A stretch of 64,000 nucleotides of DNA, taken from contig JAHIVW010000003.1 of the NCBI GenBank assembly GCA_018816245.1, positions 1 through 64,000 of the forward strand. The letters are read 5' to 3'. The position numbers and the translations under genes were made by a program. The notes beneath the pieces were generated by a model. The model searched no databases. It worked only from the letters and a program-made list of their open reading frames with translations, and was not told where the DNA came from. This document shows, one piece after another, positions 35,179 through 39,387 of the stretch (its first letter is position 1; the number at the start of each line of letters is the position of its first letter). This stretch comes from Nanobdellota archaeon. GTDB taxonomy: Archaea > Aenigmatarchaeota > Aenigmatarchaeia > QMZP01.

Positions 35179-35630
35179 ACAGCACCCTCCTCTCCAAAAC
35201 CGAGAAGCAGGACCTCCTTACCCAGCTGCGCGAGCGCTTCGGGATTCCGGCAGCGGCGTTCCATAATAAGGAATTCATGAAAGCGTCGAAAGGACGGATC
35301 TTCCTCGTGAGCGAAGAAAGCGTTCCGTTCATCGACTCCTTGAATCCACGGGCTGCCGGCTTCCTTGCAGCGAGAATGCACAAGACCCTGAAACCGAGCA
35401 CGAACCTGCTGCAGTTTGTCGGAAACACCATTACCACAAATAAGATCGCGCTCACCGAAGCACAGTTCCAGGACCTGAACAAGTGGGCAGAAACAGAAAG
35501 TACAGAAGCGACGGACGGGTATGTTGCCTTGTTCTACCGGGACATCTGCATTGGCTGCGGGCTCAAGAAGGGAACAAGCATCAAAACCATGGTCCCGAAA
35601 GGAAAGCGGATCCCGGTCACGTTCCTTTAG
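35175..35630 (+). CDS. PUA-like RNA-binding partner protein
   Basis: 4-nt overlap with upstream m5C methyltransferase; '...GYVALFYRDICIGCGLKKGTSIKTMVPKGKRIPV' resembles PUA domain. Confidence 0.65.
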   Translation: MNSTLLSKTEKQDLLTQLRERFGIPAAAFHNKEFMKASKGRIFLVSEESVPFIDSLNPRAAGFLAARMHKTLKPSTNLLQFVGNTITTNKIALTEAQFQDLNKWAETESTEATDGYVALFYRDICIGCGLKKGTSIKTMVPKGKRIPVTFL

Positions 35631-36075
35631 TGTTTTTCAACCGTTTCAACTCTTCCTCAAAGGATGTGATATCTTCATATTCTTGGTACACAGAAGCATA
35701 CCGGATGTAGGCAACATTGTCAATGCGCCGGAGCTTGCGCATCACCATGTTTCCAATAAGGTTCCCTTTGATCTCAACTGCATCTTTCCGGCGGAGCGCA
35801 TCTTCAATATCGTTCACAGTTTTCTCGATGATGTCTTGGCCGATTGGTCGTTTTTCGCAAGCCTTCATCAGGCCGGTGCGGAGCTTGTTGCGGTCAAAGG
35901 GCTCCCGCCGCCCGTCCTTTTTCACAACAATAACGGGTTGCGTTTCCACGCGCTCGTATGTTGTGAACCGTTTTTCGCATTTCTGGCATTCCCGCCGGCG
36001 CCGGGTCACGCGCCCGTCATTAGCTGCTCGCTTGTCCACGACGCGCGTGTCCGCAGCACAGAAGGTACATTTCAT
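35617..36075 (-). CDS. nrdR: NrdR transcriptional repressor (Zn ribbon + ATP-cone)
   Basis: 'MKCTFCAADTRVVDKRAANDGRVTRRRRECQKCEKRFTTYERVE..VVKKDGRREPFDRNKLRTGLMKACEKRPI'. Confidence 0.96.
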   Translation of the reverse strand: MKCTFCAADTRVVDKRAANDGRVTRRRRECQKCEKRFTTYERVETQPVIVVKKDGRREPFDRNKLRTGLMKACEKRPIGQDIIEKTVNDIEDALRRKDAVEIKGNLIGNMVMRKLRRIDNVAYIRYASVYQEYEDITSFEEELKRLKNTKGT

Positions 36076-36611
36076 TCGGTCGCCTCCCACACCACTTCTG
36101 GTTCCTTTTCGCGGATATTCTCCATCCGGGCAACCGAAAAGAGCAGGTCAGAGAGCCGGTTGAGGTAGCGAAGAATCTCGGGATTGACTGCCCGGGCAAA
36201 GTGTGCGGTGGTGAGCCGGCGTTCAGCTCGTCGGCAAATGGTTCTCGCCAAATGCAGCGCCGCCCCTGCAGGACTGCCCGAAGCAAACACGAACTTTGTC
36301 AACGGGGGAAGCCGTTCTTCGTGTGCCTGCATGAGCTGTTCCATTTCTTCAACATGCTGCTTCAGGAGCCGCGGCACCTTGTGGCTGGTTGGAGCAACAA
36401 GATCCGCATTCAAACGGAACAAATCTCGCTGGATCTTCCGAATGAGGTCTGTGGTTTCTTCATGTTTCGAGAAGGTTGCGGCAAACCCAAGAAACGCAGA
36501 GAGTTCATCGATCGTGCCGACGGTTTCCGGAATGGGATCGTCCTTCCGGATCCGTTCTCCGGTGAGCAACCGGGTGTGCCCTCGATCGAATTCCTCTTTG
36601 TACTGTTTCAC
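36072..36611 (-). CDS. pduO: PduO-type cob(I)alamin adenosyltransferase
   Basis: 'DRGHTRLLTGERIRKDDPIPETVGTIDELSAFLGFA', 'GSPAGAALHLARTICRRAERRL', 'YLNRLSDLLFSVAR'; ATGA overlap with nrdR. Confidence 0.94.
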   Translation of the reverse strand: MKQYKEEFDRGHTRLLTGERIRKDDPIPETVGTIDELSAFLGFAATFSKHEETTDLIRKIQRDLFRLNADLVAPTSHKVPRLLKQHVEEMEQLMQAHEERLPPLTKFVFASGSPAGAALHLARTICRRAERRLTTAHFARAVNPEILRYLNRLSDLLFSVARMENIREKEPEVVWEATE

Positions 36612-36621
36612 GATTCTCTCC

Positions 36622-39165
36622 TTAGTTGGAGGAACACAGTCCCCAACCGCATTCCGGGCAGCTTGCGCACCCTTCCTGGTAGGTCAATTTAATTTCACAG
36701 GTGGGGCAGAGTGTTTCTGTTTTTGCTGCCGTGAGTTGTGGTTGTTTGGTTTGCATGGCAACTGGTTCTTCGGGTATGATGAAGGCTGGTTTGTACTCTT
36801 CTTGTTCTGGTTCCTGTTCAGCCTTGGGAGCCACCAGTACCTGGGCTTTGATTGACGAATCGCGGAACACGGTCACATCCTTGCACCCGAGTTTGTGGGC
36901 CAGGAGGTAGGTCTCGCGCATCTGTTCAACCGTTGCATCTGCCGGGAAGTTTGTTGTCTTGCTGATGCTGGAGTCAGTCCACCGTTGAAACGCAGCGAGC
37001 GCGCGGATGTGATCCTCGGGAGTAATATCCATTGCCGTGGCAAAGACTTTCTTTAAATTGCTTGGGATGTACTTGATCCCTTTCAAGGTACCACGGTTCA
37101 CCGCGATCTGGCGCATCAGGTCATCATCGTACAACCCTTCGCGTCGCATGATCCGTTCGAATACCGGATCAACATAAAAGAAAGAACCGACTTTTACATT
37201 CTTCTCGTAGACCAGGGTGTACACTGGTTCAATCCCGCTGGAACACCCACCGATCATGGAAATGGACCCTGTTGGTGCGAGCACCGTCGTGAAGCTGTTC
37301 CGGATGCCGTGCTGTTTGACCTTTTCCCGGAGCTCGTTCCAGTCGAAATTCCACAATTTCTTGTTTCTTTCTTCTGCTCCAGCAAACGGCAGCCTCCCCT
37401 GGGTATAGAAGCTTTTCTCATAGAAGCGGAACACGCCGCGCGCTTTAGCCAATTCAATTGACTCAATCTTGGAATGGTAATTGACAAATTCCATGAGCCG
37501 TTCCATGAACTGCCGAGCTTCCTTGCTGTTATAGGACATGCGAAGTTCGTACAAGAGGTCACCGATTCCCATAATTCCCAATCCGATCTTGCGGGTATTC
37601 AGGGTCATCTCTTCGATCTGGCTGATTGGAAATTTGTTAACGTCGATGACATTGTCGAGGAAGCGGGTACCAACATGAACAGCCTCTTTCAATCCGTCCC
37701 AGTCAAAGGACACCGTACCGTCTTCATCTTCATGGGCAAATGCCCAGACGTTGATCGATCCGAGGTTACAACTCTCGTAGGGATAGAGCAAAACTTCGCC
37801 ACATGGGTTGGTGCTCACAATCGGTCCGAGGTGCTCAAGGAACGGGTTATACTCGTTCACGCGATCATAGAAGATAACCCCAGGCTCTGCGCTTTCCCAC
37901 GCCTGGTATACAATCATGTCAAAGAGGCGGCGGGCATCAACCGTGCGGATGGTTTCTCCGGTTCGCGGGTTTTTCAGGTCGTACGGTTTGTTATTTTCAT
38001 ACGCATCCCAGAACTCAGGTTTAATGAGAACAGAAATGTTGAAGTTGCGCAGCGCCTGATTGCCTTCCTTGGCTTTCACAAACTGTTCAATATCAGGATG
38101 GTCGCTGTTCAGGATCCCCATATTGGCACCGCGGCGGATCCCGCCTTGCTTGATCACTTCGGTCATCGTGTCAAAGAGTTTCATGAAGGTCAGGGGACCA
38201 GACGCTGTCCCACAAGTGGTGCTGACAAAGTCGCCCTCAGGCCGGAGCTTGGAGAAGTTGTAGCCCATACCACCACCGGACTTAAACACAATCGCGGTTT
38301 GTTTCAGGGTTTCCATGATCCCGTCAATGGAATCCTCAATATCCATGACAAAGCAGGCAGAACCCAGGCCAAGCGGATTACCAAAGTTGGCGATTGCTGG
38401 GGTGTTTGGCATGAACCTCCGCTTTGTCATGGCAGTAAAGAATGAGGTAATTTGCTGTTCGTGGTGATCGAATTTTCCTTTCTTGAGGAGATCGAGGAAC
38501 TCGTCCCAGGTCACCTTCATGGTCATGTTCTTGGTTGCCCGTTTGTAGAGCCGGTACACTGCTTCAAGGTGATACTGGTTGAGTGAGTACGTGCCAAGTG
38601 AGAACTTGTTCTTCTGTTTCCGGTAATCAAACTCCGGGACATCGTGTTGGGGTTGTGCTGCTTCTTTGTCAAATATCTGTTCATCGTAAAACAGGTCGGG
38701 AATGGTTGTGTGAATTGCAATACGGGTAAAGAGTTGCTTGGGAGTTTCGATCAACTTCCCCTTGGCGTCCTTTCGGAGATACCTGCTCTTGAGGACGCGG
38801 AGGGCGTTGAGATCAAAACGTTTGTCAACATCATCAATCTCTTCCTTTTCCAGGACAGCGGCTTTTTCCTTCCGAAGCTGTTGCCGTTCCTGGCGCCAGA
38901 GGATGTAGAGCTTCCCAGTGCGGGCATGTTTGTTTTCGATGAGGGTTTTTTCAACAATGTCTTGGACACCCTCGACTGTTGGGATCGCGCCTTCGGGAAT
39001 GGTTTCTGCAAGATTCTTCATCACAAGCTCTGCTAACTGTTCTGCCACTGCGCGATCCTTCCCACCAGCTGCTTTTGCTGCTCTGAAGATCGCGTCAGCA
39101 ATTTTCTTTTTTTCAAACGGCACCATGCGGCCGTCTCGTTTTCGAATCCTTATGATCGACGTCAT
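36622..39165 (-). CDS. nrdJ: Adenosylcobalamin-dependent (class II) ribonucleotide reductase
   Basis: N-term ATP-cone, 'FMPNTPAIANFGNPLGLGSACFVMDIEDSIDGIMETLKQTAIVFKSGGGMGYNFSKLRP', 'NPCGEVLLYPYESCNLGSIN', C-term CxxC cluster. Confidence 0.96.
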   Translation of the reverse strand: MTSIIRIRKRDGRMVPFEKKKIADAIFRAAKAAGGKDRAVAEQLAELVMKNLAETIPEGAIPTVEGVQDIVEKTLIENKHARTGKLYILWRQERQQLRKEKAAVLEKEEIDDVDKRFDLNALRVLKSRYLRKDAKGKLIETPKQLFTRIAIHTTIPDLFYDEQIFDKEAAQPQHDVPEFDYRKQKNKFSLGTYSLNQYHLEAVYRLYKRATKNMTMKVTWDEFLDLLKKGKFDHHEQQITSFFTAMTKRRFMPNTPAIANFGNPLGLGSACFVMDIEDSIDGIMETLKQTAIVFKSGGGMGYNFSKLRPEGDFVSTTCGTASGPLTFMKLFDTMTEVIKQGGIRRGANMGILNSDHPDIEQFVKAKEGNQALRNFNISVLIKPEFWDAYENNKPYDLKNPRTGETIRTVDARRLFDMIVYQAWESAEPGVIFYDRVNEYNPFLEHLGPIVSTNPCGEVLLYPYESCNLGSINVWAFAHEDEDGTVSFDWDGLKEAVHVGTRFLDNVIDVNKFPISQIEEMTLNTRKIGLGIMGIGDLLYELRMSYNSKEARQFMERLMEFVNYHSKIESIELAKARGVFRFYEKSFYTQGRLPFAGAEERNKKLWNFDWNELREKVKQHGIRNSFTTVLAPTGSISMIGGCSSGIEPVYTLVYEKNVKVGSFFYVDPVFERIMRREGLYDDDLMRQIAVNRGTLKGIKYIPSNLKKVFATAMDITPEDHIRALAAFQRWTDSSISKTTNFPADATVEQMRETYLLAHKLGCKDVTVFRDSSIKAQVLVAPKAEQEPEQEEYKPAFIIPEEPVAMQTKQPQLTAAKTETLCPTCEIKLTYQEGCASCPECGWGLCSSN

Positions 39166-39188
39166 GCCCACATCCCCCCTCCTGGAAA

Positions 39189-39204
39189 ACACTATATATT
39201 GTGT
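39189..39204. promoter_or_regulatory. NrdR box 1, overlapping the nrdJ TATA element
   Basis: acactatatattgtgt, 16-bp near-palindrome resembling the bacterial NrdR consensus acaCwAtATaTwGtgt; contains AATATATAG about 25 bp upstream of the nrdJ start region. Confidence 0.8.
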
Positions 39205-39220
39205 TTGTCAAGATTCAAAG

Positions 39221-39236
39221 ACACAATCCATTGTGT
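39221..39236. promoter_or_regulatory. NrdR box 2
   Basis: acacaatccattgtgt, 32 bp centre-to-centre from box 1. Confidence 0.75.
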
Positions 39237-39387
39237 AGGTAACTATCTGGTCGCTCTCTTAATATAGGATTTCGGTGATGGGGCATATTCGATTGGGTAG
39301 CTATATTCGAATGTTTGTTATCACAGACTTATTTCGTCAAACTGTGACAGATAAAACTGTGGGAAGGGAAGCGGGCCGAAAACGTTG

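Follow-up and report, generated by a model that had tools for sequence, protein, structure and literature searches.

The mechanistic studies of NrdR that we found were all carried out on bacterial proteins (PMC9110341, PMC12176259, PMC12051234), and NrdR has been called rare in archaea (PMC9110341, PMC12176259). With dATP and ATP, bacterial NrdR forms a tetramer whose two Zn-ribbon pairs sit on two DNA boxes about three helical turns apart, each of which is kinked; in the S. coelicolor protein, residues R12, D15, R17, R26-29 and R37 contact the DNA (PMC9110341). The gap between the boxes is normally 15-16 bp in bacteria (PMC12051234), and the published NrdR box profile was built to cover bacterial phyla. 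In S. coelicolor (PMC9110341; PDB 7p37, 7p3f, 7p3q), nrdR stands in the operon of its target, a class II ribonucleotide reductase (RNR), behind a bacterial sigma promoter with two boxes about three turns apart that overlap the transcription start. E. coli NrdR (PMC12176259; PDB 9fvr and others) controls three RNR operons, again in a bacterial promoter context and with a 15-16-bp gap between boxes. The haloarchaeal nrdR is found in class I nrdAB operons and has been linked to transfer from bacteria, and the passages on NrdR in that source describe no operator (PMC3019208). Two repressors of unrelated protein families that are not nucleotide sensors, Pyrococcus LrpA and Archaeoglobus MDR1, stop recruitment of RNA polymerase and do not displace TBP/TFB, LrpA acting from a site that adjoins the downstream edge of the TATA box (PMC2995911).

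The window analysed here, a DNA stretch of 64,000 nucleotides, comes from a host placed in Aenigmatarchaeota, a DPANN phylum. It was found to carry an operon on the minus strand in the order nrdJ, adenosyltransferase, nrdR. The first gene (36622..39165, with an alternative GTG start at 39171) encodes a class II, AdoCbl-dependent RNR with its own ATP-cone (TIGR02504, 709 bits). It is followed after a 10-nt gap by the gene of a PduO-type cob(I)alamin adenosyltransferase (36072..36611), identified by family and domain searches, which supplies the NrdJ cofactor, and then, through an ATGA overlap, by nrdR (35617..36075), encoding a Zn-ribbon and ATP-cone repressor. The operon thus resembles that of S. 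coelicolor in repressor family, RNR class, the presence of nrdR, and two boxes at similar spacing over the predicted start; it differs in its archaeal BRE/TATA promoter and in the cobalamin adenosyltransferase gene. As in haloarchaea, an archaeal nrdR lies beside an RNR gene. Searches of the genome gave one match to the RNR large subunit and one to NrdR; NrdD was not found in them, and nrdJ is the only RNR that they returned. The same three-gene layout with box pairs also occurs in two relatives (L123 and L103), whose RNR proteins share only 43% and 22% identity with that of the window, which suggests that the RNR gene has been replaced under the same control. Many RNR genes of the host phylum have frames of more than 1000 amino acids with split domain matches (L168, L128 and others) and look intein-interrupted.

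Membership of the window protein in the NrdR family was judged by a whole-protein match to TIGR00244, which it matched with 194 bits against a cut-off of 124.65. Its architecture is that of NrdR, a Zn-ribbon with two CxxC motifs followed by one ATP-cone (PF22811, PF03477), with the four zinc cysteines aligned and all kept. End-to-end alignment to solved proteins revealed E. coli NrdR as the closest sequence (E 9e-42), followed by that of S. coelicolor (E 3e-32). Comparison with structure 7p37 showed that every DNA-contact residue of the S. coelicolor protein, including all the arginines and D15, is kept in the window NrdR. R17, R27-29 and R37, like the cysteines, show essentially no variation across 80 archaeal sequences; the S. 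coelicolor sequence set beside them is consistent with the alignment to the PDB entry.

Upstream of nrdJ, direct reading of the window found the proximal NrdR box ACACTATATATTGTGT at 39189-39204 and the distal box ACACAATCCATTGTGT at 39221-39236, exactly the letters and coordinates given by the sequence-only reading. On the gene strand the region runs CCGAAATC-CTATATTAA-(22 nt)-ACACAATGGATTGTGT-(16 nt)-ACACAATATATAGTGT-TTTCC-AGGAGG-GGGGAT-GTGGGCATG, where ACACAATGGATTGTGT (39221..39236, minus strand) is the distal box, predicted to cover +1 to +16, and ACACAATATATAGTGT (39189..39204, minus strand) the proximal box, predicted to be part of the 5′ leader; both were located by pattern search and motif scoring. 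The boxes are 16-bp palindromes of the type acaCwAtATaTwGtgt with C and G kept at positions 4 and 13, the distal one deviating at its centre, where GG replaces AT. Their centres are 32 bp apart and the gap between them is 16 bp, or about three helical turns, within the bacterial norm of 31-32 bp centre to centre. The claim of a bacterial-type phased spacing was thus borne out, and 31 and 32 bp proved to be the enriched spacings phylum-wide. Exact matches to the pattern ACACWATNNATTGTGT in the 886,365-bp genome were confined to the nrdJ box pair; with 2 mismatches allowed there were 11+10 matches, compared with 3+3 for a reversed control pattern, and no paired sites were found among these other matches genome-wide. 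With the pair lying ahead of the RNR operon and NrdR encoded in the same genome, the two palindromes are, as judged from the sequence, an operator of an archaeal NrdR regulon to which NrdR would bind.

To examine conservation, we compared the loci of 80 relatives with nrdR or a fused or partial form of it, using as control 30 RNR loci from relatives that lack NrdR. An untrained consensus scan found pairs spaced 31 bp apart in 10 loci and 32 bp apart in 18, and 0-4 loci for each of the other spacings between 17 and 60 bp. A matrix was then built from these pairs and applied with a pair threshold of score ≥ 20. The sequence-only reading had called for a scan of related archaeal genomes for paired boxes before RNR genes, and had named lack of conservation in nrdR-bearing relatives as grounds against it; the matrix scan found a pair in 47/80 nrdR or fused loci, 0/30 NrdR-lacking RNR loci and 0/80 reversed sequences. 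Fisher's test of 47/80 against 0/30 gives p 1.5e-9, with the reservation that the relatives are not independent and that the control loci span about 4 kb compared with about 10 kb. Most of the 33 loci with no 31-33-bp pair at score ≥ 20 have a single strong box, located 20-120 bp upstream of nrdR. Conservation was likewise evident in a held-out second DPANN phylum, that of a Woesearchaeota record, where a box lies upstream of nrdR in 24/30 loci, with a 31-33-bp partner in 16/30. Among 30 named archaeal genomes, the fetched RNR locus has a pair in 6 of the 13 with NrdR and in none of the 17 without, and Clostridial and other bacterial nrdD loci, taken as a positive control, also gave box pairs.

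Several further loci are of interest in themselves. The Woesearchaeota record (L179:254-301) has an nrdJ 62% identical to that of the window with its own box pair, and its nrdR is elsewhere in the genome (G162:C47). In the phylum of a Micrarchaeota record, a recognisable box was found upstream of nrdR in only 2/12 loci (L306-L317); the boxes there may lie at unlinked RNR genes or may have diverged. Three loci in the phylum of a Methanoperedens record (L318, L319, L321) have a diverged box, CACCAGATrTTGCGG, 54-60 bp before nrdR, possibly a variant operator.

Ungapped alignment of the promoters on the box gave no sharp TATA column. De novo EM motif finding was chosen because the TATA-to-box distance varies and blurs such a box-anchored alignment, and was run on the 70 bp preceding the distal box in each of 49 promoters. 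The motif obtained, AcagAAAtgtTTATA, is a BRE plus TATA, with a log-likelihood of 199 versus 45-51 for shuffles. The first training had included the window, and the motif was retrained on the set without the window and the two relatives of the same layout. The retrained motif scores highest in the window at CGAAATCCTATATTA, upstream of the distal box, with 5.3 bits, where about 0.01 such sites are expected by chance in that stretch. It comprises a predicted TATA element CTATATTAA (39259..39267) and a predicted BRE CCGAAATC (39268..39275), both on the minus strand, matching the upstream motif conserved in 46 of the 49 promoters. Among the L092-L171 promoters, the TATA-to-distal-box distances form about three clusters, with motif starts near -27, -34 and -43.

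Archaeal transcription usually starts at a distance of about 26-27 bp from the centre of the TATA element. By this distance, the window start is predicted at 39236..39237 on the minus strand. Numbered from the distal box's first base, the predicted start has a median of +6 over the loci and is +1 in the window (about 39236). A Shine-Dalgarno sequence, AGGAGG (39178..39183, minus strand), agrees in position with a start at about 39236. Since it sits 6 nt before GTG 39171, this GTG may be the real start codon of nrdJ rather than the ATG at 39165, which the sequence-only reading had taken and which is used as the gene start here.

We favour, with a probability of about 0.75, the reading that the palindromes serve an archaeal NrdR regulon as its operator, and that a tetramer lying over the start and leader blocks RNA polymerase and not TBP/TFB. 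NrdR, the product of the last gene of the operon, would sense nucleotides through its ATP-cone and, when dATP is plentiful, would assemble into a DNA-binding tetramer. Because contact residues and spacing are the same, the archaeal protein should bind as bacterial NrdR does, its two Zn-ribbon pairs gripping the two boxes at their separation of three helical turns. The bound tetramer would then cover the transcription start with the distal box and the leader with the proximal one. The BRE/TATA at 39259-39275 lies upstream of it, which would leave the TBP/TFB sites free, so the step most likely blocked is recruitment or escape of RNA polymerase. In sparing TBP/TFB this would resemble repression by LrpA and MDR1. 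The outcome would be feedback control of the only RNR found in the genome, of the cobalamin adenosyltransferase and of NrdR itself.

A minor chance is left to a different step, in which bound NrdR acts as an elongation roadblock in the leader, or keeps the TBP/TFB/polymerase complex from forming by bending the DNA. In favour of this are the predicted place of the proximal box, about +33 to +48, and the kink of nearly 90 degrees that NrdR puts into each box (PMC9110341); however, a distal box at the start site suffices for simple occlusion.

Somewhat less probable again is repression through competition with TBP for a working TATA element inside the proximal box, as the sequence-only reading proposed. 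The string it pointed to, AATATATAG, is indeed present at 35-27 bp before the ATG, and the second-best BRE/TATA score of the region, 3.5 bits, is in that box. The contrast of 5.3 versus 3.5 bits within the window is modest, and it is the comparative evidence that decides: a BRE/TATA that ranks within the top 0.1% for its locus lies upstream in 46/49 promoters, against 5/49 with one inside the boxes, and the two same-layout relatives score 7.9 and 6.2 upstream but -8.3 and -4.3 within the proximal box. Furthermore, a TATA at 39192-39200 would place the start at about 39169, downstream of the Shine-Dalgarno sequence, which would then fall outside the mRNA. A TATA match within an NrdR box in any case means little, because the box core AATATATT is TATA-like by nature; the overlap is best read as a by-product of this core, which every NrdR box has. 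A TATA-superimposed operator was accordingly rejected as the main promoter, and competition with TBP found no support, as the distal box has the conserved BRE/TATA on its upstream side.

It is very improbable that the palindromes, AT-rich as they are, are chance inverted repeats or sites of another regulator, given their uniqueness in the genome, their spacing, their conservation and their co-occurrence with NrdR. More improbable still, and rejected, is bacterial contamination, which would make this an unremarkable bacterial NrdR operon of the kind that dominates the literature: an archaeal RNase P gene lies on the same window and a TBP gene in the genome, marking the host as archaeal, and dozens of independent genomes of archaea have the same system with BRE/TATA promoters.

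In DPANN, NrdR proved to be common rather than rare. Whole-genome searches found it above the cut-off in 74/160 Aenigmatarchaeota genomes, and in 202/287 and 57/117 genomes of the phyla of the Woesearchaeota and Micrarchaeota records, respectively, whereas only 4/199 genomes in the phylum of the Methanoperedens record had it. No paper joining NrdR with DPANN, Aenigmarchaeota or Woesearchaeota was found among the open-licence papers searched, and earlier reports are possible. Repressor and operator belong to a known kind; neither their setting in an archaeal promoter nor a regulon spanning DPANN appears to have been described in the literature searched.

Several relatives were found to encode NrdR and the anaerobic RNR (NrdD) as a single protein, fused at the N-terminus of NrdD. 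In one type (A), a complete NrdR is joined to NrdD in the order Zn-ribbon, NrdR ATP-cone, RNR ATP-cone, NrdD (L099:384-2396, L130:3-1229, L135:2982-5441, L137:2-1156, L138:2077-4554, L143:1-2025, L147:5001-7568), and a 31-32-bp box pair lies upstream of the fused gene in L099, L135, L137, L143 and L147. In the other (B), the NrdR Zn-ribbon sits directly on the single ATP-cone of NrdD (Pfam PF22811+PF03477+PF13597; L166:1-1983, L167:4243-5715, L168:1107-5435, L169:3-1847, L170:5001-7292, L171:3126-5402), and each fused gene (L166-L171) is preceded by a box pair. Taking both types together, most fusions have paired boxes, 31-32 bp apart, upstream. The fusions keep the DNA-contact residues of NrdR, and the NrdR family search found no separate NrdR in the genomes that have them. 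The prediction, for both types, that NrdD itself is the repressor of its own gene in several relatives we regard as evenly balanced. Further long open frames of the fusion kind in two other DPANN phyla (G225, G312, G341, G397, G550, G570, G581) are candidates, and in L155:3005-4555 NrdR is fused to a DHH/DHHA1 phosphoesterase domain.

In DPANN, where NrdR is widespread, a conserved operator covers the predicted start site of archaeal BRE/TATA promoters. How a dNTP sensor of bacterial type controls a promoter served by TBP/TFB can be studied here in a defined, testable case, in lineages whose genomes are tiny. Should the fusions bind their boxes, the enzyme would be the repressor of its own gene, and in type B one nucleotide-sensing ATP-cone would set both enzyme activity and transcription; the operon of the window would then be an unfused relative of this self-repressing design. 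Whether a metabolic enzyme can act as its own nucleotide-sensing repressor could be tested directly with the fused NrdR-NrdD proteins.
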